Below are positions 36,730-57,860 of a stretch of 64,000 bases of DNA, one piece after another. This stretch comes from Paludibacter sp. 47-17 (GTDB taxonomy: Bacteria > Bacteroidota > Bacteroidia > Bacteroidales > Paludibacteraceae). Under the pieces are notes generated by a model that was not told where the DNA came from, made no database searches, and saw only the letters and a list, made by a program, of their open reading frames with translations. Location: contig MKVT01000009.1 in assembly GCA_001898935.1 (NCBI GenBank), forward strand, positions 186,001-250,000. The letters run 5' to 3'. A program made the translations under genes and the position numbers. Every line of letters starts with the position of its first letter. Position 1 is the first letter of the stretch.

Positions 36730-36745
36730 GTGATGAACATTACGG

Positions 36746-36784
36746 AATAAAGGGACGGCTGGTAGAATCGGTTGTCCCTTTATT
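36746..36784 (+). terminator. Possible terminator hairpin after ileS
   Basis: aataaagggac (36746-36756) / gtccctttatt (36774-36784), perfect 11-bp inverted repeat; no long T tract. Confidence 0.45.
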
Positions 36785-36794
36785 CGACTCAATC

Positions 36795-39050
36795 ATGAAT
36801 TTTAACCCTATAAAACTAATATTAATTCTGGCCTGTATGCAATGCTTGTTTGTTTCGCAAGCTAAAACCGGCCCTGTAAATTGCTTTTCGTATGCGGTGG
36901 TGGAACCGGACACTCTGCCCGTCCTTCAGCTCATGAAAGAAGGTGTAAGAGCATTTCGTGCTGAAAACAAAGAAGAACTCGAAAATTTAATCGCGTTGAG
37001 CGAGCAACTGTTGGCGACCGACAGCACCTTCATTTTTATACTGGCCAGCGACAAGTTGATTTCCGAATCCCAACAGCTGTTAGCCAACCACGAACATCTC
37101 TACAACTTCAACCAACTTCCCTGGCCTACTGCAAAAGAGCTGAAATATTCCAACCAATCCGCCATCCTATTAAGCACGCAACAAACCATTCAGAAAATTA
37201 GCTCTTTATCGGACAGATACAACGGCAAAGCAGATTATATCGTATGGAAATGCCCGGAAGAACTCCCCGATTATGCGTCCTTATACACGTTTTGGAACCT
37301 CAATGCACAGCCTGTGAATTTCTTTGAATGTAACTACGGGCAACTTCGCCAGGTACAAGAACTCATTCAGAAATTAAATCAAACCGACAGAATCTCGGGC
37401 TGCTTTATGTCCGGAGGAAAGCTGATCAACGGAGTAACCATCAATGCGAGCGACAACTACCTTTCCAATACTCAATTTTGTTTCCCTTTTAAAGAATTCA
37501 TCAACTTAAAAACACAGAAGAACAGTTATGAGTTAATCCCTCAATGGATACTTGCCCACTCCTCCACAGACTATATGTATTCCGTCATTGAGGCTACCCG
37601 CATTCCCATCGCAACCGGCAAAATACTGCACCTGAAATCTTCAGGAAAAAGTCAGTATCCCGGGGGGAACAAAAACCTGTTCCGGAACCATGGCGTAAAA
37701 ATTCATAAAGACGACACCGGGACATTCCATCATTTCGACGGGAACGCATTCTACACATTTGCAACCGACGAATTGAAAGATAGTTTGTTGAATATAACGC
37801 TATCAACTCGCTTTCGAATCACAAAACCAGCCACCTACCACTCCATCATTTGTCAAGGTTTAAATTTCATACTTAAGGTTCATCGCGGTTTTTTATGTTT
37901 GACCATCCCAACCCAAGCCGACTACTATTTGTCCGGTATCCCTATTGAGCTTAATACCTGGTATACGATTTCGCTGGTAATTACCGAAGGCAGCAAGCTG
38001 AAAGTGTATACGAACGGAGAACTCAACGACACAATAACCATACCTCCCATAAGTACCGGAACTGACTTGTTCATGATAGGCAACAGCCCTTATCAGGAAC
38101 GCTTTCAAGGCGATATTCGTGATATTCAGCTGTGGAATCGCGGACTGGACAGTACGGACATTGCCGGATTATACTCCCCCCAAAAAAACATCAACTTCTG
38201 TTGGCTGGTTCTGATCCCGGTTATTTTTCTTTCAATTCTATCAGGAATCGTTCTGTTCCGACGAAAACGGCAACGGGCGCCGGTACCTCCGACAGCAAAA
38301 GTCGAAAAGCCAGGAAGGATGCTAACATCCAAACCGCCGGGCCATCACAACAGTTTATTTCTTTTCGGCGAATTCTCATTATTCAACAATACGGGCGAGA
38401 ATTTAATGAACCAGATGTCGCCCAAAACCCAACAGTTATTCTTGCTGGTTACGCTTAAAACCCTCCTTGGCGATGGAATTACCACGCGAGAACTGAATGA
38501 TGTACTCTGGCCGGGAATGCACGATGCTGCGGCAAAAAATAACAGAGGCGTCACGATATTCAATCTCCGCCAGGTGATGTCCGTTTCCACGGGCCTCATG
38601 CTTGATTATGCCGATAAACATTGGACTATCAAAGGATTGGAAAACTATTACATTGACTTTCAAGCTTTCAGACAACAAAAGGAAGTGTTTTCGGCAAATA
38701 CAACAAACCTCACTTTATTAAATGACTTACTCGATATCCTTTCGCAACCTTTCCTGCAAAGCATTCAGTTGGAGTGGCTCGATAGTTATAAAAACAACGT
38801 GAACGAGGAGCATCTCAAGTGGTTAATGACTGTTTCAACCCTGCCGGCAGTTCGGCAGCAACCTGATGTGATGCTAAAAATTGCAACGGCCATGTTTGCA
38901 ATCGACGAAGTAAACGAAACTGCATTGCATTTGCGGATAAATGCTTACCGAAATAAAGGATTCGAAGCGTTGGCGCGAACAAGCCTCGAGAATTTCAAAA
39001 AAAGATACCGGCTTTTATACAACGAAGAATATTCGCATGTGGATTTCTGA
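36795..39050 (+). CDS. Membrane-spanning regulator: signal peptide, LamG-like extracytoplasmic domain, single TM, cytoplasmic winged-helix plus BTAD/SARP-like domain
   Basis: 'LFMIGNSPYQERFQGDIRDIQLWNRGLDSTDIAGLY' LamG end; TM 'FCWLVLIPVIFLSILSGIVLF'; 'MSPKTQQLFLLVTLKTLLGDGITTRELNDVLWPGMHDAAAKNNRGVTIFNLRQVM' wHTH; 'EVNETALHLRINAYRNKGFEALARTSLENFKKRYRLLYNEEY' BTAD-like end. Confidence 0.78.
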   Translation: MNFNPIKLILILACMQCLFVSQAKTGPVNCFSYAVVEPDTLPVLQLMKEGVRAFRAENKEELENLIALSEQLLATDSTFIFILASDKLISESQQLLANHEHLYNFNQLPWPTAKELKYSNQSAILLSTQQTIQKISSLSDRYNGKADYIVWKCPEELPDYASLYTFWNLNAQPVNFFECNYGQLRQVQELIQKLNQTDRISGCFMSGGKLINGVTINASDNYLSNTQFCFPFKEFINLKTQKNSYELIPQWILAHSSTDYMYSVIEATRIPIATGKILHLKSSGKSQYPGGNKNLFRNHGVKIHKDDTGTFHHFDGNAFYTFATDELKDSLLNITLSTRFRITKPATYHSIICQGLNFILKVHRGFLCLTIPTQADYYLSGIPIELNTWYTISLVITEGSKLKVYTNGELNDTITIPPISTGTDLFMIGNSPYQERFQGDIRDIQLWNRGLDSTDIAGLYSPQKNINFCWLVLIPVIFLSILSGIVLFRRKRQRAPVPPTAKVEKPGRMLTSKPPGHHNSLFLFGEFSLFNNTGENLMNQMSPKTQQLFLLVTLKTLLGDGITTRELNDVLWPGMHDAAAKNNRGVTIFNLRQVMSVSTGLMLDYADKHWTIKGLENYYIDFQAFRQQKEVFSANTTNLTLLNDLLDILSQPFLQSIQLEWLDSYKNNVNEEHLKWLMTVSTLPAVRQQPDVMLKIATAMFAIDEVNETALHLRINAYRNKGFEALARTSLENFKKRYRLLYNEEYSHVDF

Positions 39051-39150
39051 AAAAACAAGATAATTAACCGTCTTGTTAGCCGATATTTTAATCCTGGCTC
39101 CTCTATTTTTGCGTATCAACAGTTGTTGTTAAACTTAAAACGCAAAAATC

Positions 39151-42100
39151 ATGAAACAAAGAATTACCACCTTATTGGTTGTCGCTATTCTGACGGCAAT
39201 TTCGTCAGTTGCCCGAAACAGCGCTCCGTTTGACAAGTTTGGTGCGCAGGCTCAAGCCCTGAGCGGCACAAATTCGCCAAGTGCCGATTATGCGGTTTCA
39301 TTCGACGGAAATTCTTCGCTGAAACCATCAGGGGCAATCCCTCCATTTGGCTCTACCTTTACCATTTCGGGTTGGATTTTCCCAGCCTTGAATACTTCCG
39401 GAACCATACGCACTATCGCCTCCTGGGCGTCGACAGGTAGCGGCGCTGTAGGGAATTTTTTCCGGATCGAAGGCGACGATAATTTATTTTACGGACAATG
39501 GAACGGAACGTTTAAGAAAGCACGGTCGACTACCCAGCTCAGTTTTGGGAAATGGCAACACGTAGCGCTGGTGAAGGATAACAATACCCTGCGTTTTTAC
39601 ATCAATGGCAAGGAAAGCACCGCTGTTTATACCAACGGCGCAGCTCCCATGAACAACAACTCCACAAGCGACGGATTCAGGTTTGGCGGATTGTATCAAA
39701 ACGGATCATTCGTTGAAGCCTTCAAGGGGCAAATGAACGATCTGGCTTTTTATACTTCGGCCCGGACGGCTGCCCAGCTTTCGGCCGAATACACTGAGGG
39801 GGTAGATACTTCGGAACCTTCCCTGTGGGGATACTGGGACTTTAACGACAAAGCTGCGGTAGCAACCGATAAGTCGGGCAAGGGAAATTCCTTAACCCTG
39901 ATGGGGAATATTCAATATACCGAAAAGATGGAGGAACTCATTCCCGATGGAGGAACGCTGAGCACCGGACAGGCAAAAAACACGACCGTTCATGCCTATA
40001 TCCACTCCAATGCTCCGGGCAAATTGTATTGGGCTGTTTATCCTTCGCCGACTCCGGCCATCACCGTACAAGACGTAAAAAACGGCACGAATTCGCTCCG
40101 TTCGGGCGTTAAAGAGTACCAAACACATCCGTACACCGATTTCTGGATCATCAACCGTCTTAACCCGGCCGGTACCTACACGTTGTACGGGATACTCGAA
40201 GTACCCGGAACCGAGGACAAACTGATTTCAACCCCTTTCAGCACAACGAATTCGACAAGGGATTTATCTTCACAAATCACAGCCGTACAGTCGCTTATGC
40301 AACGAATGCTACCCGCCAGAGCCTCCGAATTCGAATTTACGGCCATCGAGCCGGTCGACGATGTGCTCGATGTATTCGAGCTACGTTCAGAGGGTGGAAA
40401 GATAAAGGTCGGCGGCAGTTCGGCCACCGCCATGGCGGCGGGTGTGCGTTATTACCTGAATACGTACTGCAACGCGTCGTTCTCGTGGAATGGCGATCAG
40501 AATATTTTACCCAGCCCCCTCCCCGCACTCTCCGCACCTGTACGTAAAGAAACCACTTACCGGCATCGGTATGCCCTGAATTATTGTACGCTGAACTACA
40601 CCATGTCGTTTTGGGACTGGGAGCGTTGGGAACGTGAAATCGACCTGATGGCGACGCAGGGTGTGAACCTGTTTCTTTCAGGCATTGGCACCGAGGCAGT
40701 ATGGCAAAACGTAATGCAGAAATACGGCTACACCTTCGACGAAATTCAGGAATTCATTCCCGGCCCGGCCTATACAGCCTGGTGGCTGATGGGAAATCTG
40801 GAGGGCGAAGGAGGTCCGGTGAGCCGGGAATATATAAACGGACGCGTAGCCTTACAAAAGAAAATAATTGCCCGCGCAAAGGAATTGGGCATGGAAGTAG
40901 TGTTGCAGGGATTCTGTGGCTTTGCACCTACTACCATCGGCAGTAAAATTCCGGGGATTACAGTTCACGGCCAGGGCGAATGGGTGAGCGGATACAAGCG
41001 TCCGGTAGTGGTAAGCGGACCCAAGGCTTTCGAACTCGCTGCCAGCTGGTACGAAGAATCGGCCCAAATATTCGGCGTAGCCAACTACTATGGCGGCGAC
41101 CTTTTTCATGAAGGCGGTCGGGTTCCGGCCGGCATGGATGTAACGCAATTTGCTGCCGACATCCAGGCCGAAATGCTGAAAGCCAATCCCAATGCGGTTT
41201 GGGTGCTTCAATCGTGGCTCCACAACCCCAAACCCGAACTACTGGTGGGGCTCAAAAAAGACCAAACACTGGTTATCGATTTGGGCAACGAACGCGACAA
41301 TGGCTGGTTGCGCGATGCACCGGCCGCGTTTACCAATATCCCCTGGGTATACAGTGTCATTCAGAATTTCGGAGGACGAATGGGTATCTACTCGCGGCTG
41401 CAACGCATTGCCGACAATCACTACGAAATGCTTCATCATGCAAAGAAAGGCAACAACTGGGGAATAGGTATTGCCCCCGAAGCCATCACCTTCAATCAGG
41501 TAGGATACGATATACTATGGAATATGGTGTGGGAAACAGGCAAAATCGATATCCAGGAATACGTTAAACGGTTTGCGAGCTATCGTTACGGCCAGCAACT
41601 GGAAGAAACCACTGCGGCCTGGCAGCTACTCGCCACTACTGCCCTCAATTGCCCGGGAAGCAGCTGGCAGGACGGAGCCTCGGAATCGGTCATCAATGCG
41701 CGGCCGGCGCTGGACATTACAAAAGCTTCGTCGTGGTCGACCACCTCCCTGTATTATGATGCGAAAGCCATTTTACCCGCCTGGACAGGGATGTTGAAAG
41801 CTGCCGGCCAGCTTGCCGACAAAACCACCTATCGTTTCGACCTGGTAGACATTACCCGGCAATGCCTGTCGAACTACGCGCAAGACCTACAAAAAGAAGT
41901 AACGGCTGCCTTCCGTGCTAAAAACAAAACCCTTTTTGCCTCCAAAAGCAGGCTGTTCCTCGAACTGATACTCGATATGGACAGTTTATTGCGTACCCGC
42001 CGGGAATGCATGTTGGGCCCGTGGATAGCCGGCGCACGCGCACTGGGAACCAACGAAGCCGAAAAAGACCTGTTCGAGATGAATGCACGGGCACTGGTGA

Positions 42101-42651
42101 CCACCTGGGACATGAAAAAAGACGGTGCGCTCCACGATTATTCGCACCGCGAGTGGGCCGGACTCACCAAAAGCCTGTATTACGAACGTTGGAAGCTATT
42201 TTTGAGCGACTTGCAGGGACAATTGGATGGCAAAGCAGCACAAAACAACAACTTTTTCACGAAGCTTGAATATCCGTGGATTTCGAAATTCGGCGAGCTG
42301 CACAACACGCAGCCGGAAGGCGATGAGATCGAAATGTCGGTTTATTTGTACAACAAATACATGCCGTTGATACAAAACACCACCAATAATACAACGATCG
42401 ACCTGCCCCCTAACAACAACCGGTTGATACTTTATCCCAATCCAGCTACGGAGCAATGTCGCCTGCAATTTCCAGTTGAACAAATACTAACCGTAACAGT
42501 CACCGATCTGCAGGGGAAAGTGCACTTGAGCAGCCGGGAAGCAGGCGCCACTATCACCTTACACACCCATACGCTCTCCAATGGAGTTTACTTCGTACAC
42601 CTGCACAACGAGAACATCAATACTTCCCTGAAATTAATAGTCGAACGCTAA
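39151..42651 (+). CDS. Alpha-N-acetylglucosaminidase (GH89/NAGLU-like) with N-terminal LamG and T9SS tail
   Basis: 'TYRHRYALNYCTLNYTMSFWDWERWEREIDLMATQGVNLFLSGIGTEAVWQNVMQKYGYTFDEIQEFIPGPAYTAWWLMGNLEGEGGP' NAGLU signature; 'NYYGGDLFHEGG'; C-term 'LILYPNPATEQCRLQF...LSNGVYFVHLHNENINTSLKLIVER'. Confidence 0.9.
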   Translation: MKQRITTLLVVAILTAISSVARNSAPFDKFGAQAQALSGTNSPSADYAVSFDGNSSLKPSGAIPPFGSTFTISGWIFPALNTSGTIRTIASWASTGSGAVGNFFRIEGDDNLFYGQWNGTFKKARSTTQLSFGKWQHVALVKDNNTLRFYINGKESTAVYTNGAAPMNNNSTSDGFRFGGLYQNGSFVEAFKGQMNDLAFYTSARTAAQLSAEYTEGVDTSEPSLWGYWDFNDKAAVATDKSGKGNSLTLMGNIQYTEKMEELIPDGGTLSTGQAKNTTVHAYIHSNAPGKLYWAVYPSPTPAITVQDVKNGTNSLRSGVKEYQTHPYTDFWIINRLNPAGTYTLYGILEVPGTEDKLISTPFSTTNSTRDLSSQITAVQSLMQRMLPARASEFEFTAIEPVDDVLDVFELRSEGGKIKVGGSSATAMAAGVRYYLNTYCNASFSWNGDQNILPSPLPALSAPVRKETTYRHRYALNYCTLNYTMSFWDWERWEREIDLMATQGVNLFLSGIGTEAVWQNVMQKYGYTFDEIQEFIPGPAYTAWWLMGNLEGEGGPVSREYINGRVALQKKIIARAKELGMEVVLQGFCGFAPTTIGSKIPGITVHGQGEWVSGYKRPVVVSGPKAFELAASWYEESAQIFGVANYYGGDLFHEGGRVPAGMDVTQFAADIQAEMLKANPNAVWVLQSWLHNPKPELLVGLKKDQTLVIDLGNERDNGWLRDAPAAFTNIPWVYSVIQNFGGRMGIYSRLQRIADNHYEMLHHAKKGNNWGIGIAPEAITFNQVGYDILWNMVWETGKIDIQEYVKRFASYRYGQQLEETTAAWQLLATTALNCPGSSWQDGASESVINARPALDITKASSWSTTSLYYDAKAILPAWTGMLKAAGQLADKTTYRFDLVDITRQCLSNYAQDLQKEVTAAFRAKNKTLFASKSRLFLELILDMDSLLRTRRECMLGPWIAGARALGTNEAEKDLFEMNARALVTTWDMKKDGALHDYSHREWAGLTKSLYYERWKLFLSDLQGQLDGKAAQNNNFFTKLEYPWISKFGELHNTQPEGDEIEMSVYLYNKYMPLIQNTTNNTTIDLPPNNNRLILYPNPATEQCRLQFPVEQILTVTVTDLQGKVHLSSREAGATITLHTHTLSNGVYFVHLHNENINTSLKLIVER

Positions 42652-43018: not shown

Positions 43019-46000
43019 ATGAAAAAATTGCTACACATCTCAGCTTTACTTGTGGTGCAGCTTCTCTACACCCAAAGTTACGCAGCGGCCGTCATGCCGC
43101 AGGTGAGTGCCGGATCAGTGGAATACTGGTACCACATTTCTTTTCAAAACGGCACAAACATGGTGCTTCAGGACAATGGAGAAGATGCCATTCTGACCAC
43201 ACAGGCTATTTCGGTAGGAGCAGACAATCAGCTTTGGAAATTTGAAGCATCTGCAACAAGCGGAGAGTATGTTTTTACTTCAAAAGCGGGCAGAAAAATT
43301 TATTGGGACGGAACTGCTTCCCGATTCAAGGCAGGAAGCGACGACACACCCACCAATATTAAATTCATTGCCTCTGCAAACACAACCAGACCCAATTCAT
43401 GGGAATTGCAACGCACCGGATCGACCCGGGCTATGAATCCAAACGGCGGAGCAAGCGCCGGCAGCCAAATAGGCGAATGGTACCTGGGCGATATCGGCAA
43501 CACGATCAAATTCCACACCGCACCTTTTAAAACAAGCTCGGGAGCTACCGAGTACTGGTATCAGCTCGTATTTCAGCGATACACCGGCAACCTGGCTATC
43601 CGCGACAATGGTGAAGATGCGATCCTTACCTCCGAAACACTGGTGGCAGGCGCCGAAAATCAGCTCTGGAAGATTGAAGTATCAGTTAATCCCGGTTTTT
43701 ATATTTTCACGTCGAAGGCAGGGCGAAAAATCTATTGGGACGGAACTGCTTCGCGATTTAAAGCAGGAAGCGACGATACCGGAGTCGATCTTAAAACCTT
43801 AATGTCGGGCAACAACGACTACGCTCTGTCCTGGGAACTTCAGCGGACCGGATCGAGCAACGGATTAAATCCATACGGAGGTTCGTCGGCCGGAAGACAA
43901 TTAGGAGAAACGACCTTGGGAGATGGCGGGAATGTACTGAGATTTATTTCCGCACAGAATTTTCTCCGGAATGCCATAACTACTGCACAGAATAAACTGA
44001 CGAACACCCTTGCAGGAAGCGATCCGGGCACGTATACCACCGCCGACCGTACAACACTGGGAAATGCCATTAACACGGCAATAACCGCTTTGTCAGGCTC
44101 CTCGACCGATGCAGAATACCTGACTGCCAAGACCAACCTGGAAACGGCTGTAAGTACGTATACCAATTCGGTAATCACACCTCAACTCAGCACGCCGGGG
44201 GACGAACGTTGGTATTATATCCAGGGAACACGTCCGGCCAACACCTACCTGTCGAGCAACGGAGCAGGGGCTCAGCTTTCATCCAAAACCGTAATACCCG
44301 ACGACACCCAGTTATGGAAATTTGTGGCCAATACCAACAGCCCGGCCAATGGTTTTGCAATGGTGAATAAAGCTACCGGCGAATACCTGAACGCCAACAC
44401 CCCCTACAACACCAGCATCAATTCGGTGGCAACCATGCCCACCAATAATCTGCAATTTATCGCCAGCGATATCTACTCTGATAAAATAGTTCGCTTCTGG
44501 ATCGAAAACACTGCCGGATCGACACCTGTTTTCCGCCTGCACGCAGGTAATCCGAATATATTGAACTGGAACGGTAATGCATACGACAACAGTAGCTGGC
44601 TAATCCTGGACTACAACGTGGCACAGAAAGTTTTCCTTCAAACCAGCATCAACGACGCTGCCGGTTTATTGGCCGGTACTACCCAGGGAAGTTATTTTGG
44701 AGAATACACTGCCGAAGCCCGCAGCACCTTACAAACAGCTATAAACACTGCTCAGGCCGTTCACGATGATCCTTCGGCAACGATCACCGAAATTCAAGAT
44801 CAGCGGACCGCCATACAGGCTGCAATCGCTACTTACAAAGCAGCTGCAAACTCCGATATCAACGGACTTGTTTCGACCAGCCCCTACAAGTACCGTTGGT
44901 ACAGAATTAAAAACAGAAATTATTCCTCTAACGATATCATAAGCTCCAATGGAGTTGCGGAAAATGGCGGTATAATCACACAAAATGCAGGAACTGCTAC
45001 CGACAACGAACTGTGGCGGTTTGAAATAAATACCGGAGGAACGGCTGTGAAAATCATCAACAAAGCAACCGGCCTGGCTATCAAAGAAAACGGTCAAAGC
45101 GCCCAATCTACTTTAGTAAAACCGGCAAGCGCCACCGAGTTTACCTTCACGCGTATTGATCTGTTTTGGGCCATCGGACGTGTAGGTGCAACGCAATATC
45201 AATACCTGCATCGTGACGGATCTTCGCGATTAGTAGGCTGGGAATCGTCGGCAACAGCTTCCAACTGGGCATTGCAATTTGTAGAGGAAGCCGAAATACC
45301 CCTTGGCATTCCTGTAGCCCCGATGGTATCAACTACCGATAAACCGGTATATTACATGATCCAGTCGGCCTCCAACGGTTCGGTCAACTTAAGTGGCGGA
45401 GGGAAAAATTACCTGGATCATTTACTGTATGCACCGACCAACACCAACAATGTGAATCTCAAACACGATAAACGCTCGACCCTTATCGGCGCCGGCATCA
45501 GTATGGATAATGCATTATGGCAACTGATCGAAGAAGGAGGGAAACTTAAACTAAAAAACAAAGGTACCGGGCTGTATATGAACGATGCACGCTTCGGTAC
45601 AACGGTGAGCGATCAAACCTTCTCGGCTGTTCCGATAAGCGGCACCACCAATCAATACCTGCTTAAGACTTCAACCCAGGCGAATCCCGCGGTAGCCTGG
45701 TACAATGAGGCTAACGGCAACTATATTGACCGCTGGGGCTCTACCGCCGCCAATAGTCAAGTAGCCTGGTACTTTATTGCTCCTGCATTCTCGGGCACTT
45801 CCGACTTCAGCAATGCTGCCGACTGGACCAATGGTGTCGTTCCTGCCGATAACATGGCCGTTGCGATCAACAGCAACGCTACCATCGCTACCGACAAAGC
45901 GTTTAACGGTCTGCATATCGCTACCGGCAAAACCCTCACGGTAAATGCAGGAAAGGGATTAACCGTTCACAATTCCATCACAGGAAGCGGAACCTTACTT

Positions 46001-47332
46001 CTGAGATCCGATGCTGCCAACGGAACGGCTACCGTAACCGGAAATGTTACCGGCACTGCCACCGTAGAACAACACCTGCCTGCTGCTACCGAACGTACCT
46101 GGTGGTACCTTGCCAGTCCGGTGACCGGAGCTGCATGGACGGTATTCGGCAGCAATCAGGTGGGAAATTACAGCGAATCAACCCGCAGCTACTCGGCTCC
46201 CTTTGCAGCAGCCGAAACACTGGAAGCCGGCAGGGGATATGTAGTGAAAATGAATGCCACAGAGGCAGCAGTGTATCAATTTGCCAACAAAACGCTGAAT
46301 AACGGCAATATTTCGGTGCCGCTTACCCGCTCGGTAACCGGAAACCTCGACAACAAACGTGGTTTCAACCTTGCAGGCAACCCCTATCCTTCGTACCTGA
46401 ACTGGGGAATGGCTTACGATGCCGCCACCAACGTTCGTTCCACGATCTGGTACCGCACCCAAGGGACAAGTGCAATGGAATTCCACACCTATAATGCCGC
46501 ACTGGGCGTAGGAGTTCCCGCGTCGGCGAGCGGATACATACCTCCGATGCAGGCCTTCTGGGTGAAGGTGGACACCGATCCTATCGAGCCTGAAACCGTC
46601 AGCAACGGAACGCTGAACTTCACCAACGCGATGCGTGGTCATGCCAATTCCTCCGAAAACCGCCTGAAAGCTCCGGCTACCGGCACACTACCGCTACTTC
46701 GCCTGGAACTCAGCAACGGAACCGCCAGCGACGAAACGGTGATTACCATCCACGACAGCGCGTCGGACAATTTCGATCGTTACGATTCTGAAAAAATGAG
46801 CAATACCGGTGCAGCTGAAGTATTTACCCTTACCGGAACCCAGGAATTGGTCATCAACGCCCTGGCGAAAAGCGAAGGTAGCAAATCGGTGCGCCTGGGT
46901 ATTCGCCCTGCCGGTGCAGGCAATTTCACCCTGAAGGCGACGGAATTGAAAAACATGGACGATATAGCGCTTATCCTGCACGACCATCAACTCAACACAC
47001 GAACCGAACTTAAGCTGAACGAAAGCTACAGCTTTATTTCCGAAGCCACCGCCACCAACGATCGCTTCAGCGTAGAACTCCGCGCACCGGGAGCCACCAC
47101 CTCGGTAAACGATGTTCCGGACCAACTGAAAGTAGGCGTATCCGTAGCCGGCCGTCTTACCATCGAAGGTCCGGTAACTGCCGGTAGCATCATCGGCGTG
47201 TACAACACGGTAGGACAGCAGGTATTCTCCCAGGCTGCTACCGGTAGTTATACCGAGCTTGACCGCGCGTTACATCCCGGCGTATACATCGTGAAAATCA
47301 ATAACACATCCATTAAAGTAACTGTAAAATAA
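43019..47332 (+). CDS. Large modular T9SS-secreted protein (repeated RICIN/beta-trefoil-like modules, FIVAR-like helical repeats, C-terminal secretion tail)
   Basis: Repeated 'NGEDAILT...NQLWK.E......F.FTSKAGRKIYWDGTASRFKAGSDD'; 'GSDPGTYTTADRTTLGNAINTAITAL'; C-term 'GVYNTVGQQVFSQAATGSYTELDRALHPGVYIVKINNTSIKVTVK'. Confidence 0.85.
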   Translation: MKKLLHISALLVVQLLYTQSYAAAVMPQVSAGSVEYWYHISFQNGTNMVLQDNGEDAILTTQAISVGADNQLWKFEASATSGEYVFTSKAGRKIYWDGTASRFKAGSDDTPTNIKFIASANTTRPNSWELQRTGSTRAMNPNGGASAGSQIGEWYLGDIGNTIKFHTAPFKTSSGATEYWYQLVFQRYTGNLAIRDNGEDAILTSETLVAGAENQLWKIEVSVNPGFYIFTSKAGRKIYWDGTASRFKAGSDDTGVDLKTLMSGNNDYALSWELQRTGSSNGLNPYGGSSAGRQLGETTLGDGGNVLRFISAQNFLRNAITTAQNKLTNTLAGSDPGTYTTADRTTLGNAINTAITALSGSSTDAEYLTAKTNLETAVSTYTNSVITPQLSTPGDERWYYIQGTRPANTYLSSNGAGAQLSSKTVIPDDTQLWKFVANTNSPANGFAMVNKATGEYLNANTPYNTSINSVATMPTNNLQFIASDIYSDKIVRFWIENTAGSTPVFRLHAGNPNILNWNGNAYDNSSWLILDYNVAQKVFLQTSINDAAGLLAGTTQGSYFGEYTAEARSTLQTAINTAQAVHDDPSATITEIQDQRTAIQAAIATYKAAANSDINGLVSTSPYKYRWYRIKNRNYSSNDIISSNGVAENGGIITQNAGTATDNELWRFEINTGGTAVKIINKATGLAIKENGQSAQSTLVKPASATEFTFTRIDLFWAIGRVGATQYQYLHRDGSSRLVGWESSATASNWALQFVEEAEIPLGIPVAPMVSTTDKPVYYMIQSASNGSVNLSGGGKNYLDHLLYAPTNTNNVNLKHDKRSTLIGAGISMDNALWQLIEEGGKLKLKNKGTGLYMNDARFGTTVSDQTFSAVPISGTTNQYLLKTSTQANPAVAWYNEANGNYIDRWGSTAANSQVAWYFIAPAFSGTSDFSNAADWTNGVVPADNMAVAINSNATIATDKAFNGLHIATGKTLTVNAGKGLTVHNSITGSGTLLLRSDAANGTATVTGNVTGTATVEQHLPAATERTWWYLASPVTGAAWTVFGSNQVGNYSESTRSYSAPFAAAETLEAGRGYVVKMNATEAAVYQFANKTLNNGNISVPLTRSVTGNLDNKRGFNLAGNPYPSYLNWGMAYDAATNVRSTIWYRTQGTSAMEFHTYNAALGVGVPASASGYIPPMQAFWVKVDTDPIEPETVSNGTLNFTNAMRGHANSSENRLKAPATGTLPLLRLELSNGTASDETVITIHDSASDNFDRYDSEKMSNTGAAEVFTLTGTQELVINALAKSEGSKSVRLGIRPAGAGNFTLKATELKNMDDIALILHDHQLNTRTELKLNESYSFISEATATNDRFSVELRAPGATTSVNDVPDQLKVGVSVAGRLTIEGPVTAGSIIGVYNTVGQQVFSQAATGSYTELDRALHPGVYIVKINNTSIKVTVK

Positions 47333-47341
47333 ATATTCATT

Positions 47342-47509
47342 ATGAACAACAAGCAAATCAAACCCTACGAAAGTCCGGAAATAGCATTAGTACTGCTTGA
47401 CCACGAAATCTCACTGCAACTTGCATCGGATCCGGATCCGATGGGAGAACCCGACTGGACAAGTAAGGCTCAAGACAATTTCACGAGCGATCCTTATCAA
47501 TTAATCTGA
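47342..47509 (+). CDS. Small conserved protein (55 aa), not in supplied ORF track: MNNKQIKPYESPEIALVLLDHEISLQLASDPDPMGEPDWTSKAQDNFTSDPYQLI
   Basis: Translated by hand; ATG 9 nt after the 43019 gene; 37/55 residues identical to the ORF at 55749-55916; followed by an intrinsic terminator. Confidence 0.85.
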   Translation: MNNKQIKPYESPEIALVLLDHEISLQLASDPDPMGEPDWTSKAQDNFTSDPYQLI

Positions 47510-47599: not shown

Positions 47600-50500
47600 A
47601 TGAAAAAACTCGTACTTTTTTTAAGTGTATTGCTCTGGTGGAGCCTGCAAGGCTTTTCATTGCTTGCACAAGTAAACGGCACCGCTTCGCGGCCGGTAAT
47701 TTCAACTGCAGCTACACCGGTTTATTATTACATCGAATCGGCATCGAACGGGACGGTAACCGCCGGCTCAGGAACCGCCAATTACCTGGGAAATCTGATG
47801 TATGCTCCCTCCGCTACCAGCGGCGTGAGGATTAAGCACAATCTCAGAGCATCCATCACTCCCCTCGATAATGCTCTGTGGCAACTCATCAGCGAAGGTG
47901 GTGCGCTGAAACTTAAAAACAAAGGTACAGGCTTGTACCTGACCGGAAGTCATACCGGCGTGACGTCGACCACCAATACCTATATTTACAGCGAATACGG
48001 TTCGACCACTCAATTCGTAATGCGCACCAGCGACCAGGCCAGTTTTACGATAGCCTGGGGAAGCAACAATCTGGATCGATGGGGAACCTCCTTGGGCGCC
48101 AACAGCCAGACGGCCTGGTATTTCATTTCGCCTTCGGAACTGAATTCCAGGATTGCCGAGGCGGTAGGACTGTTCAACACCACTAAAGCCGGCGTACATC
48201 CGGGCCAATATCAGGAAGCAAGCCGCAGCACATTTTCCACTGCTATACAAAATGCGGTTGCTGCACGCGACAACGCCGATGCCGGCGACGATGCCGACGC
48301 CCTCTCTACCCTCACCACCGCTATCACCACCTATCAGAACTCGCAAAACCAACTTCAGATCAGCTCGGGCAGCAACGAATACTGGTACTGGATTAAAGGC
48401 ACACGAGGATCGGCAGCCACCGCTTTGTACGCCGAATTCCAGTCGGCTGGCACACAGGTGCTCAACAAGGACAGAGCCCTGACCGACAAGCAACTCTGGA
48501 AGATTGTAGCCAATGGCAGCGGATATGCGCTTCAAAACAAAGCAAGCGGGACGTATATGAATACGAATATCGCGAACAATACTTTACTAAAAACAGAAAC
48601 TGCACCACCAACAGCAAAACCGGTTTATTTTAATAAATCGACCTATGCTACGGATGCTGTAGATAAGATTCAATATTATTTGATCGAAGACAATACTACG
48701 TCAACAGGTGTTTCTTTCCGGATGCATGCGGGGGGAAGCAGTCATAACTGGGGACTGATGAACTACACAGGCGGCATTTCCGACAATTGCTCGTTCCAGT
48801 TTCTTGCCTACGATCCCGACGATGTACTCTCGACTGCCATCACCGAGTGCGAATCGGTATATACAAAAGCAGTTACCGGTACAAATCCCGGGCAATACAC
48901 TCCGGACAACAAAGCCACGTTCCGCGCAGCCATCGATGCAGCGATAAGCGTCAACATCAGCAGCTCGGCCACCAGTGAAGAAAAGACCACAGCTGCAGGC
49001 ACTCTGAACCAGGCAAAATCCACTTTTACAGCAAGCCGCAATCCGATTAAGTTAAGCACCGCCGGGGATGAGGTGTGGTACTATATTGTTTCGGCTCACT
49101 CGGGATACAGTTCGGGCCAGGTGATGACCAACCAGAACAACACTGCCGGCACCAGCATTCTGTATTCCGCTAAAACCCAGGATCCGAATAAGCTCTGGAA
49201 ATTCACCGATAGGGGAAATGGTAAGGTAGCGATTCAAAATCGCGCTTCCTCGCTGTATATTTCGGCTAATCCTCGCAACGACGGAACCACCGCAACGGCC
49301 GTCGGCTTCAACGTCGTCTGGCTGAGCGAAGGGGCTCAGTTGCTGATGAATGCAGACGGACAATCCTACCTTCACGCACAACAGGCAGGCACGGTTATCG
49401 TTACCTGGGGCACCAGCGATGTCAATTCGGCTTCGGCCTGGCGCCTAGAAGAAATACCTGCTGCGGACGAAAATCTACCCGTCGGCATCACTTCGGTGAG
49501 TGTCAACCAAGGTACCTACACTACTACCGGACGCGGAAATACCGACCATGGAATGGCCTATGCCACACTGAGCACCAGCGGTTTCGCAGGCACTGCAGCT
49601 GTCACTTCCATCACCGTCGACTTAACCGGAACCAGCCATACCGCCGCCATCGAACGTTTGAAACTCTACTCCACCGGTTCGTCCACCCGCCTCAATCCCG
49701 CTACACACACGCTGCTCAGCGTGGTGGAAGGTCCTTTTACCACCTCCGACCCCATCGTCTTCACACTGAATTCGCCAGCCACTGTTGCTCCCGGCACACA
49801 TCAGTTCTATATTGCCGCCGACATAGCCGAAGAAGCTGCGGAAGGCGCCATCCTCGACAACCGAATTCTCTCGGTAGCTTATACCGACGGGAACAGTCAG
49901 GCACAAACCATCGCTCCGGCAACAACCACGACCCCCCTGCACAGCATTGTATTCCTCACCCGCACGGTGGTCGTACAACCGGGCGATTACGGCTCCGTGA
50001 GCTACCGGATCCCGGCTCTTACTATTGCACCCGACGGCGCATTGGTGGCACTTACCGACAAGCGGAAATACCATTCGGGCGACCTGCCGGCCGACATCGA
50101 CGTAATTGCTCAACGCAGCACCGATGGCGGTAAAACATGGTCGGCGCCGGTTACCGTCGCACAAGGCGCCAGCAGCAGCACAGGATTTGGCGATGCGGCC
50201 ATCATTCGCTCCAACAGCGGCAAGCTGCACGCACTTTACGTGGGCGGACAAGGATTCTTCGCCTCCACAGCAGCCAATCCGATCCGCTCGTACATCTCCA
50301 CCAGCGCCGACAACGGTATCAGCTGGTCGGCACCGCGCGACATCACCTCGCAACTGTATGGCGCCGGATGTAGCGATCCGGTACGGGCCACCTGGCTGGG
50401 CTCTTTCTTCGGCTCCGGACAAGCCCTCTGCCTGCGCGACGGGCGGCTGATGGCCGTGATGGCGGTGCGCGTACCGGATGCAGGGATAAAAAACTATGCA

Positions 50501-52612
50501 GCGTATTCCGACGACGACGGCCTCACCTGGCAGGTATCCAACAAAGCCATCGACGGCGGCGACGAAGCTAAGGTAGTAGAACTCGACAATGGCGACATCC
50601 TGATGAGCACCCGCACCGGCGGCAACCGTCTCTGGACCAAATCGGCCGACAGGGGCGTCAACTGGAGCCCGCAAAGCAGCTGGACCGAGATCTGGGGTAA
50701 TGCCTGCGATGCCGATATCGTTCGCTATACTTCCACCACCGACGGGTACGAAAAAAGCCGGCTGCTCCACACCCTGCCCAATGCCTCCGACCGCCGCAAC
50801 CTCACCATGTGGATGAGCGAAGACGAAGGTACCACCTGGCCGGTGAAAAAAACCATTTGCCCCGGCACCTCGGCGTATTCGTCGGTCACTATTCTCCCCG
50901 ACGGCACCATCGGAGTGTATTTTGAAGAAGATGGATCGAACGCGTACACCATGACCTTCGTGAACTTCAGTTTGAACTGGCTGACCTCCGGCACCGACAG
51001 CTATCAGAATTCGCCGGCAAAAGCGTATCGCACCAAAAACAGCGGTAACTGGAGCGAACCCGGCAACTGGGAAGTAGCTACCCATACGGCCGTGTGGGTG
51101 ACACCCACCCGGCAGCCCACCCATCAATCGCCGGCTATTACGGTTGCCGCCACACACGAGCTCACTATCGATAATGCCGCCACAGCCGACGTGCTTACCG
51201 TAGAAGCCGGTGGAAAACTCACCATCGCCGGAGGAAAAAGCCTGATTGCCAACCAACTGAAATTGAAAGGTAATACCACCGACGGTACCGCCACCCTGCT
51301 GAACCAGGGCAGCTTTACCGGCACCCTCGAAGTAGAACAAGCCCTTACCGGCAAGAGCAGCGCCGAAGCCTCCGACAACTGGTGGTACCTGTCGAGTCCG
51401 GTGAGCAATGCCACTGCAGCTGTATTTCTTACCGGCAACAACAAGTTGGGCTCTTACAACGAAGCGGCAGCCACCTATCCTCAGATTGTCAATTCGACTG
51501 CGATGCTGACACCGGGCACCGGCTATCTGGTACAACTGAACACTGCCGGCAGCTATACCTTCAGCGGAACAGCCAATACCGGCGAAATCACCATCCCCTT
51601 GAGCCGTACCGGAAACAGCAACGCCAAGCGAGGATTCAATCTCATTGGAAATCCTTACCCATCGTACCTCCACTGGAATACCGTCACCGGTTTCGGCACC
51701 GAAAGCCGGCGGACCGATATTCGTCCCACCATTTGGTACCGCACCCGAACGGCAGGCGGAGCCATGGTATTCGATACCTTCGACGGAGAGGACGGCACCG
51801 ACAACGGCAGACAAGGACTGGTCAATGGATTTATTCCTCCCCTGCAGGCCTTCTGGGTAAAAGTGAATGCCGACAACAGCACAACCAACCTGGTGCTGAA
51901 CGACCATCACCGCACTCATCGCACGGGTGCCGGCCACCTTCTGAAAGTTAAATCAGCCGGGGAGAGAAAAGTGATTCGCCTGACTATCGGCAACGGTATC
52001 AACCGCGATGTCACCATCATCTCCACCAATCCCGATGCCGACAGCGGCTACGATGCCCTCGATTCCGAAAAAATGAGTGCCGGAAATACCGCCGTGCCCG
52101 AAATCTTTACCCTGGCAGGAGAACATGAGCTGGTGATTAACAAACAAAAAGAACTGAGGGCGGGGATGCGCTTCGAAGTGGGCATTCGTCCCGGAACGGC
52201 AGGCACCTTCACCCTCAGCTTGAGCGAAGGCACCGTTACCGGCGGATTGGGATGCGAGTTGACCGACCACCACACCGGCGCAGTAACGCAACTGGAGGTA
52301 GGCGACAGCTATACCTTCACTTCCGACGGCAGCGCCGCCAACGACCGTTTCACCTTGCACCTACGCACTCCGGGAGCTATTACGGCCCTACCTCGGGACA
52401 GCATCACCCCGGTGAACGTTTCCACCACCTCCGAAGGGCATCTCCGGATAAGCGGTGCAAAAGCCGGCGGGCAGATACAGGTGTTCGATATCGCCGGCCG
52501 GATGATTTGCTCCGAAACAGCCGGCAAAGAGGAACATATCATTTCCGCCGCTTTGGGGGCCGGCATGTATCTGGTCCGAGTCGGGGACCAGCTGGTAAAA
52601 ATCAACCTTTAA
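47600..52612 (+). CDS. Modular T9SS-secreted sialidase (GH33, BNR/Asp-box repeats)
   Basis: 'VSYRIPALTIAPDGALVALTDKRKYHSGDLPADIDVIAQRSTDGGKTW' (YRIP plus Asp box), 'SRLLHTLPNASDRRNLTMWMSEDEGTTW', N-terminal RICIN/FIVAR-like modules, T9SS tail 'IQVFDIAGRMICSETAGKEEHIISAALGAGMYLVRVGDQLVKINL'. Confidence 0.92.
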   Translation: MKKLVLFLSVLLWWSLQGFSLLAQVNGTASRPVISTAATPVYYYIESASNGTVTAGSGTANYLGNLMYAPSATSGVRIKHNLRASITPLDNALWQLISEGGALKLKNKGTGLYLTGSHTGVTSTTNTYIYSEYGSTTQFVMRTSDQASFTIAWGSNNLDRWGTSLGANSQTAWYFISPSELNSRIAEAVGLFNTTKAGVHPGQYQEASRSTFSTAIQNAVAARDNADAGDDADALSTLTTAITTYQNSQNQLQISSGSNEYWYWIKGTRGSAATALYAEFQSAGTQVLNKDRALTDKQLWKIVANGSGYALQNKASGTYMNTNIANNTLLKTETAPPTAKPVYFNKSTYATDAVDKIQYYLIEDNTTSTGVSFRMHAGGSSHNWGLMNYTGGISDNCSFQFLAYDPDDVLSTAITECESVYTKAVTGTNPGQYTPDNKATFRAAIDAAISVNISSSATSEEKTTAAGTLNQAKSTFTASRNPIKLSTAGDEVWYYIVSAHSGYSSGQVMTNQNNTAGTSILYSAKTQDPNKLWKFTDRGNGKVAIQNRASSLYISANPRNDGTTATAVGFNVVWLSEGAQLLMNADGQSYLHAQQAGTVIVTWGTSDVNSASAWRLEEIPAADENLPVGITSVSVNQGTYTTTGRGNTDHGMAYATLSTSGFAGTAAVTSITVDLTGTSHTAAIERLKLYSTGSSTRLNPATHTLLSVVEGPFTTSDPIVFTLNSPATVAPGTHQFYIAADIAEEAAEGAILDNRILSVAYTDGNSQAQTIAPATTTTPLHSIVFLTRTVVVQPGDYGSVSYRIPALTIAPDGALVALTDKRKYHSGDLPADIDVIAQRSTDGGKTWSAPVTVAQGASSSTGFGDAAIIRSNSGKLHALYVGGQGFFASTAANPIRSYISTSADNGISWSAPRDITSQLYGAGCSDPVRATWLGSFFGSGQALCLRDGRLMAVMAVRVPDAGIKNYAAYSDDDGLTWQVSNKAIDGGDEAKVVELDNGDILMSTRTGGNRLWTKSADRGVNWSPQSSWTEIWGNACDADIVRYTSTTDGYEKSRLLHTLPNASDRRNLTMWMSEDEGTTWPVKKTICPGTSAYSSVTILPDGTIGVYFEEDGSNAYTMTFVNFSLNWLTSGTDSYQNSPAKAYRTKNSGNWSEPGNWEVATHTAVWVTPTRQPTHQSPAITVAATHELTIDNAATADVLTVEAGGKLTIAGGKSLIANQLKLKGNTTDGTATLLNQGSFTGTLEVEQALTGKSSAEASDNWWYLSSPVSNATAAVFLTGNNKLGSYNEAAATYPQIVNSTAMLTPGTGYLVQLNTAGSYTFSGTANTGEITIPLSRTGNSNAKRGFNLIGNPYPSYLHWNTVTGFGTESRRTDIRPTIWYRTRTAGGAMVFDTFDGEDGTDNGRQGLVNGFIPPLQAFWVKVNADNSTTNLVLNDHHRTHRTGAGHLLKVKSAGERKVIRLTIGNGINRDVTIISTNPDADSGYDALDSEKMSAGNTAVPEIFTLAGEHELVINKQKELRAGMRFEVGIRPGTAGTFTLSLSEGTVTGGLGCELTDHHTGAVTQLEVGDSYTFTSDGSAANDRFTLHLRTPGAITALPRDSITPVNVSTTSEGHLRISGAKAGGQIQVFDIAGRMICSETAGKEEHIISAALGAGMYLVRVGDQLVKINL

Positions 52613-52790: not shown

Positions 52791-55739
52791 ATGAAGAAAC
52801 TTATTTTATTGGCACTGATCCTGTGTAGCATACAGGGCTTTGCAAAACGGTACCTGGTACAAACAGGAGCTCCCGGCGCAGCCACATGGAGGGCAGCCGG
52901 AGACGGAGAAGAGCTGGTCGACCTGACGGCGAATGGTCAATCGTTCAACACATGGTACAATGCGACTGTAATTTCAACCGATGAAGTGTGGATTGCGGCA
53001 GGAAACTACGTATTGAGTGGAGTCAACACGGTCAGTCAATCGAATCATTCGGTGTATGGCGGCTTCGCCGGTACAGAGGTTCAACCTTCGGACCGGGCAA
53101 AGGGAAGCGTTGCCTGGGCATTCACGAACGAAACAATCCTGGACGGAAATAATGCAACCCAGGTTTTACTTGCCGGCGGCCCCTTGTCGAATGTGGTATT
53201 CGACGGCATCACCATCACTAAAAGCACCGCGTCCAATGCAGCCGCGCAGTTCAGAAGCGGGGTAACCCTGCAAAATTGCAAAATCACAAACAATACTTCA
53301 ACGGGGAACGGAGGCGGAATTAACTTGTACAACGGAGGCAGTGTAACGAACTCCTATATTGCCGCAAACCTGGCATCACACGGAGGCGGAATATATTCGA
53401 ACACTGCTAATGCCGAAACTGCTTCCATTACGGGTTGTTTGATCGAAGACAACAGAGGCAGCTCTACGTGCGGAGGAATACGGGTTCAGGGCGCCGGACC
53501 CGGTACGACAGTAGTCACTAATTGTATTATCCGGGGTAATAAAGGGTGGGACGGAACATCGGCCAAACCAGGAGGAGCTATTTACACGAATTCGGGGAAC
53601 AATAGCTTTATCAATTGCTTGATTGTAAACAACTCGGGCACCAATACCGTTTATTTTAACGGAGGAAATCTATTCAATACAACAATTGCCAATAACGTAG
53701 GACAGGTGTTAATTGCAAGCGCATCAAACTCGATGTCGCTCACCAACTGCCTCGTTTGGGGCAACAAAACCGACACTTCAGGTGCTACCAACACCGGAAT
53801 CACAAGCAACACCGGCAACCTGAACGTAACCATTAAAAATTGCGGCATTTCGCCGGCACCAGGTGCAGGCTGGACGCAACAAGCGAATTTCACCCTCGAA
53901 TACGGAAACGAATCGCAACAAAACGACAAAGGACCCGGTTTCGTTTTACCGACCACTTTCTGGGGTGCTCCCGGCAGCCCCTCCCAACAAACTGAATTGG
54001 AAAATGCGGACTGGTATATCAAAAACACTTCGGGAGCCATCAACAAAGGAACAGCAAACGTAAGCTATACGAACGACTTATCGGGTAACCCGCGTCCTCA
54101 AAACGGAACTTTCGATATTGGCGCTTACGAGCGAATACCCCTGTATTACACATCGGTAAAAACCGGTTCGTGGAGCGTCACCGGCACCTGGAACAGTTCG
54201 ACCGACAAACTTAACTGGACGGCCGCGGTAGACGTTCCTTCCGTATACGACCAAAGCGTTGTTGTTCAAAACGATCATGAAATAAACGTGAATGTCAACG
54301 GCTCATCTACCACACTCATTATTCAACCGAAAGGCAAGCTGACAATCGATGCCGGCCAGACATTAAATCTATCGGCAACGCTTACACTGGAAAGCAACGC
54401 AAACGGAACTGCTACTGTGGTAGACGCCAACACCGACCTTAACGGATTGACTGTTGCAGGAGCCACTTCCGTGCAACACTACCTTCCGGGTGGCGGACGT
54501 ACGTGGTGGTACGTAAGCAGCCCGCTTACCGAAGCATCCAGCACTATATTCGACGGAGATAAGATTGGCAAACATGTGGAAGATTATGAAAATGATGGTG
54601 ACGAAACAACTTCAGCGCCTTATTACACCTCCCCTTTCTCCACTCCCGAAAATCTAAATCCGGGGCGCGGATACATGGTAAAAAGGACAGCTCCCGCCAC
54701 CGGCACGACCTACACCTTCACCGGCGGATCGCTCAACACGGGTAATATTACCCTCACTCCTACCCGCACCGGAACCAGCCAGGGAGCCCGGGGATTCAAC
54801 CTGCTCGGCAATCCGTATCCTTCGTATATCGACTGGGATGCGATTCACGAAGAATCGACCAATATGCGCAACGCAATCTGGTTTCGAACATTTGATACCA
54901 CAACAGGCAGTATGATTTTTCACACCTATGGCGATGGTGATGCCGTACCGGAAATTACATCACCGAAAATTGCTCCGATGCAGGCTTTCTGGGTAAAAGT
55001 GGATAAAGACAACACGCCTGCTTCAGTAACGTTCAGAAACATCCATCGCTCGCATTTCACCACCGGAGCCAATCCGCTGAAAGTGAAAACAGCCGGCAAC
55101 CGTCAGCGCCTCCGCCTCGTCATAAGCAATGGCTCTGCCACCGACGAAACCTTGCTGGTGGGCAAATCGTATGCATCGAATAGCCTGGATAATTACGATA
55201 TTGAAAAAATGTCGGACAACAACGGTGAAATACCTGAAATTTATTCCCTTATCGATCATCAGGAATTGGTGATCAACTCCATGCAGGAACTGAGCGATGG
55301 ATTGGTCGTAGCGCTCGGCATTCGTCCGGGCAAGCCGGGCAATTTCAGTATCGAAACCACACAGTTGGAAAATATCAACGGAAGGGTTATATTGGTGGAT
55401 CAACTTACTGGCACGGAAACAGAGCTAAATCCGGGCTCCGGCTACTCGTTTACCGCCGATGGAACCGCCAACAACCGCTTCAGCCTTGAGTTTCGCGCTC
55501 CGGCTGCTATTACAGGTTTTCACAACGCCAACAGCCAACTCAAGGTGGTTGCGTCCGGCAACAGCATCGTGATCCAAGGATTGTCAGCCGGTAAGGTGGT
55601 ACGTATTTTTAATACAATGGGACAAGAACTTTACAGCGCAACAGTTTCGGCCGACCGTACCGAATTACAGCACTCCTGCTCACCGGGCTTATACCTGGTA
55701 AAAGTGAATAATGAAACCACTAAAGTAACCGTAAAATAA
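52791..55739 (+). CDS. T9SS-secreted right-handed beta-helix (parallel repeat) protein
   Basis: 'NCKITNNTSTGNGGGINLYNGGSVTNSYIAANLASHGGGIYSN' beta-helix repeats, 'GAYERI'; C-term 'VRIFNTMGQELYSATVSADRTELQHSCSPGLYLVKVNNETTKVTVK'. Confidence 0.87.
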   Translation: MKKLILLALILCSIQGFAKRYLVQTGAPGAATWRAAGDGEELVDLTANGQSFNTWYNATVISTDEVWIAAGNYVLSGVNTVSQSNHSVYGGFAGTEVQPSDRAKGSVAWAFTNETILDGNNATQVLLAGGPLSNVVFDGITITKSTASNAAAQFRSGVTLQNCKITNNTSTGNGGGINLYNGGSVTNSYIAANLASHGGGIYSNTANAETASITGCLIEDNRGSSTCGGIRVQGAGPGTTVVTNCIIRGNKGWDGTSAKPGGAIYTNSGNNSFINCLIVNNSGTNTVYFNGGNLFNTTIANNVGQVLIASASNSMSLTNCLVWGNKTDTSGATNTGITSNTGNLNVTIKNCGISPAPGAGWTQQANFTLEYGNESQQNDKGPGFVLPTTFWGAPGSPSQQTELENADWYIKNTSGAINKGTANVSYTNDLSGNPRPQNGTFDIGAYERIPLYYTSVKTGSWSVTGTWNSSTDKLNWTAAVDVPSVYDQSVVVQNDHEINVNVNGSSTTLIIQPKGKLTIDAGQTLNLSATLTLESNANGTATVVDANTDLNGLTVAGATSVQHYLPGGGRTWWYVSSPLTEASSTIFDGDKIGKHVEDYENDGDETTSAPYYTSPFSTPENLNPGRGYMVKRTAPATGTTYTFTGGSLNTGNITLTPTRTGTSQGARGFNLLGNPYPSYIDWDAIHEESTNMRNAIWFRTFDTTTGSMIFHTYGDGDAVPEITSPKIAPMQAFWVKVDKDNTPASVTFRNIHRSHFTTGANPLKVKTAGNRQRLRLVISNGSATDETLLVGKSYASNSLDNYDIEKMSDNNGEIPEIYSLIDHQELVINSMQELSDGLVVALGIRPGKPGNFSIETTQLENINGRVILVDQLTGTETELNPGSGYSFTADGTANNRFSLEFRAPAAITGFHNANSQLKVVASGNSIVIQGLSAGKVVRIFNTMGQELYSATVSADRTELQHSCSPGLYLVKVNNETTKVTVK

Positions 55740-55748
55740 AATACGATC

Positions 55749-55916
55749 ATGAACGAATATCGAAACAACCGCTACGAGCGTCCGGAAATAACACAGGTAC
55801 AACTTGATCTTGAAATTTCACTTCAGCTTGCATCGGATGTAAATCCTATGGAAGAACCCGACTGGACGAGTAAGGCTCCGGAAAATTTCACAAACGATCC
55901 GTATCAACTTACCTAA
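55749..55916 (+). CDS. Small conserved protein (55 aa), not in supplied ORF track: MNEYRNNRYERPEITQVQLDLEISLQLASDVNPMEEPDWTSKAPENFTNDPYQLT
   Basis: Translated by hand; ATG 9 nt after the 52791 gene; paralogue of 47342-47509; followed by an intrinsic terminator. Confidence 0.85.
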   Translation: MNEYRNNRYERPEITQVQLDLEISLQLASDVNPMEEPDWTSKAPENFTNDPYQLT

Positions 55917-57761: not shown

Positions 57762-57860
57762 CTTTAGTTTCTTTTTCAATAGAAGTTTCCGGTGAACAAC
57801 CATCACCGGAAACTTCAAGTTAACTCGAGCCGGTTCACTTGCCGGCCAAAATCTATACCC

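Follow-up and report, generated by a model that had tools for sequence, protein, structure and literature searches.

A predicted membrane-spanning LamG protein with a SARP-type DNA-binding domain, encoded beside a GH89 gene in Paludibacter sp. 47-17

Introduction

What might a protein do that appears to carry a lectin-like domain outside the membrane and a SARP-type DNA-binding domain inside it, and that is encoded directly ahead of a glycosidase gene? This question is raised by a 751-aa reading frame of Paludibacter sp. 47-17, which lies in a 64,000-nucleotide stretch of contig MKVT01000009.1 (the window, meaning the whole stretch of DNA that was analysed). Sections of PMC3878776 describe the control of glycan use in the phylum via three types of regulator, namely SusR-like, HTCS, and ECF/anti-sigma. 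According to parts of a 2023 survey, transmembrane regulators are enriched in Bacteroidota and are mostly hybrid in Bacteroides (PMC10269533); the words BTAD and SARP are absent from its main text.

A first-pass annotation of this DNA had interpreted the protein as a candidate one-component glycan sensor, with the genes at 39151-61463 as its possible targets. The layout on which that interpretation was built (LamG, one transmembrane (TM) helix, and a cytoplasmic winged helix plus BTAD) stood up to the present analysis, while glycan sensing and the control of 39151-61463, in favour of which the context of the family speaks, are carried forward here only as conditional proposals.

Results

Gene and protein layout

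The open reading frame was borne out at exactly the coordinates first given, and its parts were assigned as follows.

36795-39050, forward strand: gene of the LamG-TM-SARP protein (ORF call, ATG start, 751 aa; homologues)
36795-36860, forward strand: residues 1-22, a start resembling a signal peptide (hydropathy)
36861-37679, forward strand: residues 23-295, orphan extracytoplasmic part (homologue searches; single-sequence model, pLDDT 42.5)
37785-38165, forward strand: residues 331-457, LamG / concanavalin-like domain (PF13385, E 7.5e-13)
38202-38258, forward strand: residues 470-488, predicted TM helix (hydropathy mean 2.67, positive-inside)
38259-38336, forward strand: residues 489-514, basic cytoplasmic linker (sequence; K/R count)
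38346-38639, forward strand: residues ~518-615, predicted winged-helix part (AlphaFold2; OmpR-type winged-helix matches, model residues ~4-101)
38655-39020, forward strand: residues ~621-742, predicted BTAD-like helices (AlphaFold2 helices 107-228; AfsR and EmbR matches spanning model residues 1-237)

Pfam returned a single match on the 751-aa protein, Laminin_G_3 (PF13385) at residues 331-457, which scored 49.3 bits where 27.6 is the cut-off. No match was obtained with NCBIfam or with phmmer against PDB chains, and Pfam found neither a histidine kinase nor a receiver or an AraC domain in the window protein. Hydropathy revealed a signal-peptide-like stretch at residues 3-21, which together with the LamG match agrees with the exported N-terminal region ending in LamG that had been proposed. 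A single TM helix had been expected near residue 475, and hydropathy placed the only internal TM segment at 470-488; six K/R residues fall in the 15 positions after it and one in the 15 before it, so that the N-terminus is predicted to be out and the C-terminus in. The protein is predicted to span the membrane with its lectin-like domain outside and its SARP-type DNA-binding domain inside, and by this prediction a TM segment and a DNA-binding domain are found on one polypeptide, as in a transmembrane transcription regulator.

The C-terminal domain is predicted to have a SARP-type fold

The C-terminal 237 residues (515-751) of the window protein had no match in Pfam or NCBIfam. They were aligned with 19 homologues from related genomes (alignment A2, 20 sequences), the members of which share 23-29% identity with the window sequence and have eight invariant residues (F527, W572, N582, V586, D621, K666, D704, and Y738 in window numbering). 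Running AlphaFold2 on A2 gave a winged helix and a helical BTAD-like part at a mean pLDDT of 92.8 and a pTM of 0.86. With this model, Foldseek found three AfsR and two EmbR chains at E < 0.001 (best E 7.1e-6 for AfsR and 1e-4 for EmbR), the first other protein appearing at 0.066. In VIA-align the model reached Z 15.3 against AfsR 8k60_I (226 aligned residues, rmsd 5.0, 18% identity) and Z 14.9 against EmbR 2ff4_B (228 aligned residues, rmsd 4.9); the next fold after the SARPs, ScpAB, followed at Z 10.0 over 70 residues. The rmsd of ~5 to AfsR and EmbR suggests that the winged helix and BTAD parts of the model are placed differently relative to each other. The DNA-binding domains of ArlR, PhoP, SaeR, and PhoB matched at Z 8.4-8.9, which identifies the winged helix as OmpR/PhoB-type, and the BTAD part sits directly behind it, the alignments to AfsR and EmbR covering model residues 1-237. 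The C-terminal winged-helix/BTAD fold foreseen by the first-pass annotation was thus recovered with AfsR and EmbR as best PDB matches, and its placement behind the TM helix in SARP order, without a kinase, is backed by fold, profile, and hydropathy.

Evidence for a SARP at the sequence level was weak and in agreement with the fold. The Pfam BTAD model matched 3 of the 20 family members (best E 0.0017), the window protein not being among them, and Trans_reg_C matched one (E 0.046). When PDB sequences were searched with the A2 profile, the matches were to consensus TPR and saposin chains (best E 0.037) and did not include a SARP. PF03704 had five matches in the own genome, one of them above the cut-off (at C9:268238) and none at the regulator gene. 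The C-terminal domain is more than a chance resemblance, since it recurs at 19 loci of related genomes with E from 1.8e-17 to 9.3e-27.

A family of predicted membrane SARPs in relatives and phylum

Counting matches that reach past query residue 700 in 60 related genomes, own genome excluded, homologues of the C-terminal domain were found at 19 loci in 12 genomes (11 of the 35 of the genus, plus G054). The A2 profile matched 22 of 395 genomes of the phylum at E <= 1e-6, own genome included, and yielded 14 strong matches (E < 1e-40) in 10 of the 394 other genomes and 14 weaker rows (E 3.2e-15 to 4.5e-7); 12 strong matches (two of G243 left out) and 7 weaker rows were analysed.

A TM-like segment precedes the SARP part in 17 of the 19 relatives at a hydropathy mean of at least 1.5, and in the other two, L045 and L049, a hydrophobic stretch is visible below that mean. 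Eleven of the 12 strong phylum members likewise have a hydrophobic segment (mean 1.32-2.73) at most 120 residues before the SARP part, the exception being the 271-aa ORF L094:9757-10572, which has no TM segment there. None of the seven weak-row proteins showed a clear TM segment before the SARP part (maximum mean 1.52, in a stretch of L100 that overlaps the domain start); judged by eye, L103 is receiver-linked, L100, L102, and L105 are STAND-like, L099 and L101 are TPR-like, and L098 carries the SARP part in front. A tree split 32 membrane-family rows from seven soluble BTAD proteins at 100/100, with the window protein on a long branch (1.54) at a fork without resolution. The highest identity of the window protein was 33%, to L091, which BLAST also matched at 1.4e-34, independently of the A2 profile that contains the window sequence itself.

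Kelch models matched 18 of the 20 members of the window-plus-relatives set and 8 of the 12 strong phylum members, and gave no match in the window protein. Two members, L040 (511 aa) and L096:6362-8413 (683 aa), fall short of the length that the usual layout needs and by eye have a LamG-like part without a propeller. Because Kelch is the usual form and the window protein has LamG plus an orphan part, it represents one ectodomain variant of a modular family. This family of membrane SARPs in Bacteroidetes-type bacteria is apparently undescribed: full-text searches of the published literature, with most subscription journals outside their scope, listed no title that concerns membrane-bound SARPs of this group.

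Family genes also occur as tandem pairs (L096:6362-10856 and L094:6848-10572), the second copy of the L094 pair being the 271-aa ORF without a TM segment. The Kelch-type member L092:5864-8458 has a frame broken upstream of the SARP part, either by a sequencing error or as a pseudogene.

The ectodomain is largely an orphan

When 393 genomes of the order were searched with residues 23-405 at E <= 0.001, none matched except the own genome. A search of 385 genomes of the class with residues 23-300 recovered the own genome again and one further match at E 0.0085, which lies in a frame with three stops. An ortholog with this ectodomain was found in none of the 60 relatives, the 393 order genomes, or the 385 class genomes, so that the context in the window is not checkable by conservation, which counts against a role in glycan use. 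Scanning genome contigs with the single protein (own-genome records possibly excluded) produced no ortholog and only a LamG match in Labilibaculum. The LamG domain of the regulator is distant from that of the GH89 enzyme (23% over 77 residues), which also argues against the glycan-use reading, and carbohydrate binding is not universal among LamG domains.

Single-sequence structure prediction of 280 residues from residue 23 gave a pLDDT of 42.5 and a pTM of 0.38. The best PDB matches of this low-confidence model, which were TDP2-type (E 7.9e-3, Z 5.4), were too weak to be relied on. A PI-PLC-X reading of residues 23-300, seen by eye as a degenerate barrel, was dropped. These residues scored no better than shuffles against three PI-PLC-type proteins of related genomes (z -1.13, -0.08, and -0.44), hhalign of the N-terminal region with PI-PLC gave a probability of 0.1%, Pfam at E up to 10 yielded DUF5597 alone (E 0.076), and a phylum search with one PI-PLC-type protein, run without a positive control, found nothing at E <= 1e-6. 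PI-PLC was absent among the matches listed for the N-terminal model, an absence that excludes nothing with so poor a model. Window residues 172-328 matched a 552-aa protein of G005 (L087; GGDEF/EAL-type by eye) at 28%, which was put down to chance, and an ectodomain alignment (A5) with added LamG homologues was discarded, the homologues being scattered over the unrelated N-terminus.

Genomic context in the window

The regulator gene lies between ileS and the GH89 gene, all on the same strand, with the following features around it.

36745-36785, forward strand: 19-bp hairpin ending 9 nt before the regulator ATG (folding energy of 36730-36810, -29.3 kcal/mol; z -4.58 relative to 200 shuffles)
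39104-39111, forward strand: TANNTTTG box, 47 bp upstream of the GH89 ATG (sequence scan)
39151-42651, forward strand: GH89/NAGLU enzyme with LamG (residues 65-210) and a T9SS tail, presumed target (Pfam)
43019-47332, forward strand: ricin-type-lectin protein, possible target (Pfam)
47600-52612, forward strand: BNR sialidase-type protein with ricin-type lectin repeats, possible target (Pfam)
52791-55739, forward strand: beta-helix protein with a T9SS tail, possible target (NCBIfam for the tail)
56148-57761, forward strand: BNR sialidase-type protein, possible target (domain scans)
57792-61463, forward strand: BNR sialidase-type protein with ricin-type lectin repeats, possible target (domain scans)

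The hairpin is probably the ileS terminator. No promoter of the regulator gene was identified. Sigma-70 and terminator scans remained at shuffle level. The TANNTTTG box, which resembles the Bacteroidetes -7 consensus, occurs in 4 of the 7 upstream regions of window genes; with 48 boxes in the 64 kb of the window, both strands counted, the expectation for these 1,415 bases is ~0.5, a figure that is not adjusted for intergenic AT content. A search upstream of the seven genes brought up no shared operator, which weighs against the glycan-use reading; the common words of 9-12 bases were AT-rich runs or belonged to two paralogous small ORFs.

The GH89-like enzyme with a LamG domain that had been noted 100 bp downstream was confirmed at 39151-42651. 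T9SS tails scored above cut-off in this enzyme (Pfam) and in the beta-helix protein (NCBIfam), and below cut-off in the proteins starting at 43019 and 47600; no SusC/D pair was found among the six genes of 39151-61463. The run is perhaps a host-glycan degradation cluster that works via type IX secretion. The GC content of the regulator gene is 0.437, against 0.50-0.56 in the downstream genes.

Two paralogous 55-aa ORFs (47342-47509 and 55749-55916, both forward strand) share LEISLQLASD-like and EPDWTSKA stretches, and each lies directly after the stop of an exported-protein gene and before a sialidase-type gene.

Neighbours of the family loci

Neighbours were collected from 29 family loci (19 from relatives, 10 from the phylum), taking up to two ORFs per side and keeping those of at least 150 aa, which gave 98 proteins; 96 were scanned jointly, L043:5122-9267 (HTCS) and L048:1375-4905 being left out for length. 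The control drew its 79 ORFs from twenty 7-kb regions in the same genomes, hand-picked at round-number positions and not random. Among the 25 families listed for each set, the neighbours contained GH43 (5), sulfatase (4), GH125, GH92, GtaA, SusD, and TonB plug (3 each), and the control contained plug (3), TonB barrel (2), SusD-like (1), and GHL10 (1). By phmmer, 13 of the 96 neighbours and none of the 79 controls were relatives of the GH92, GH43, GH38, GH99, and sulfatase neighbours (Fisher p 0.0003). Counted per locus, 14 of the 29 loci had a glycosidase, sulfatase or SusC-like gene within two ORFs, compared with 2 of the 20 control regions (p 0.005); when SusC was left out, the counts were 11 of 29 and 0 of 20 (p 0.001). 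Both comparisons carry the caveat that the tested families were first noticed in the neighbours themselves and that the loci are not independent (L045/L051, L046/L047).

GH92 adjoins L041, L039, and L055, the last of which also adjoins GH125; GH38 adjoins L042, GH99 adjoins L054, and sulfatase adjoins L045, L051, and L047. SusC and SusD adjoin L038 and L090, and SusC and an HTCS gene adjoin L043. Carbohydrate genes were missing in the scanned neighbours of L048, L053, L088, L089, and L093, which weighs against the glycan-use reading; the scanned first neighbour of L048, L053, and L093 had no Pfam match, L089 adjoins a tRNA synthetase, and L088 is near a FecR-type protein.

Discussion

Proposed mechanism and alternatives

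With a probability of roughly 0.6, I read the window protein as a one-component transmembrane regulator of glycan use that works like SusR and has a SARP output. This reading is based on the domain order, the predicted cytoplasmic fold, the predicted TM helix, the family, and the genomic context, in which GH89 comes next and has a promoter-like box of its own; from these I infer the ligand, the direction of the signal, the DNA sites, activation over repression, and the targets. The LamG-bearing ectodomain (residues 23-466) would lie in the periplasm and bind a glycan or glycan-linked ligand, and the single TM helix would pass the state on, probably by dimerising or by shifting the linker 489-514. 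The cytoplasmic winged-helix and BTAD module could then bind promoters at the membrane and recruit RNA polymerase to the adjacent GH89 and sialidase-type genes.

A second reading keeps the transmembrane SARP regulator but has it respond to a non-glycan signal (a peptide, the state of the envelope or of secretion, or ions) and act on distant targets, with GH89 an incidental neighbour. I consider this unlikely, given the LamG domain in the sensor and the glycosidases and sulfatases that are richer among family neighbours than in the control (13/96 vs 0/79), even though region 23-295 is an orphan, 15 of the 29 family loci are without a relative of the tested glycosidase, sulfatase, and SusC proteins within two ORFs, and the GH89 gene has a promoter-like box of its own.

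Alternatively, regulated proteolysis could free the SARP domain from the membrane to act in solution; the basic linker of ~26 residues between TM helix and winged helix, the solubility of classical SARPs, and the 271-aa L094:9757-10572, which has no TM segment before its SARP part and lies beside a full-length copy, point that way. SusR, however, is active as a membrane protein according to sections of PMC3878776, and proteolytic release seems distinctly improbable. A decaying or recently shuffled chimera with no regulatory role would account for the orphan ectodomain, the long tree branch, and the low GC of the gene, but the 751-aa frame is intact and retains all eight invariant residues of the C-terminal family, which leaves this explanation very little credence.

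The window protein may stand for a further class of glycan-locus regulators that Bacteroidota-type bacteria have in addition to SusR, HTCS, and ECF/anti-sigma systems, namely single-pass membrane SARPs that join one conserved cytoplasmic output to ectodomains of carbohydrate type that can be exchanged (Kelch propellers, LamG, orphan parts); I would put this generalisation at even odds. Such a class would have been overlooked because its output domain is hardly detected by Pfam and NCBIfam, and as neither has a model that names the domain in the window protein, domain-based surveys may under-count such regulators. If true, membrane SARPs near GH92, GH125, GH38, GH99, GH43, sulfatase, and SusC/D would be a fourth regulator type, new regulator-ligand pairs would be open to testing, and a mechanism familiar from the soluble SARP factors of actinobacteria would be carried to the membrane, which raises the question of how a tethered BTAD factor activates transcription.

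Likeness to known systems

Classical SARPs are soluble and have their module at the N-terminus, whereas the window protein has a TM helix at 470-488 and a C-terminal module. SARPs bind direct repeats and activate transcription. AfsR (PDB 8hvr, 8k60) and EmbR (2fez, 2ff4) share the order of winged helix and then BTAD with the window protein (Z ~15 over 225-228 residues), but in the latter the module is C-terminal, preceded by an exported LamG part and a TM helix, sequence identity is 12-20%, and the context is glycan degradation instead of the antibiotic synthesis of SARPs. ToxR, TcpP, and CadC also combine a TM segment and a DNA-binding domain in one chain, and their winged helices matched at Z 7.1-8.2, while in these proteins the winged helix is N-terminal and is not known to come with a BTAD.

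According to sections of PMC3878776, SusR is a membrane protein that senses in the periplasm and controls glycan genes through a DNA-binding part at its cytoplasmic C-terminus; the same sections state that this part did not significantly resemble the DNA-binding parts of other factors. Going by that description, the layout of sensor, membrane segment, and C-terminal output is common to the SusR-like regulators of Bacteroides and the window protein, and the SARP-type winged helix plus BTAD output would set the latter apart from SusR. With HTCS regulators the likeness consists of a large periplasmic sensor and the proposed glycan-locus control, and one family locus (L043) adjoins an HTCS gene; unlike them, the window protein shows LamG alone in Pfam and lacks a histidine kinase, a receiver, and an AraC domain. 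Labilibaculum L086:5367-7217 (616 aa) resembles the window protein in joining LamG, a TM segment, and a C-terminal DNA-binding part in one chain, and differs in that its output is AraC-type instead of SARP, its TM and AraC labels having been assigned by eye.
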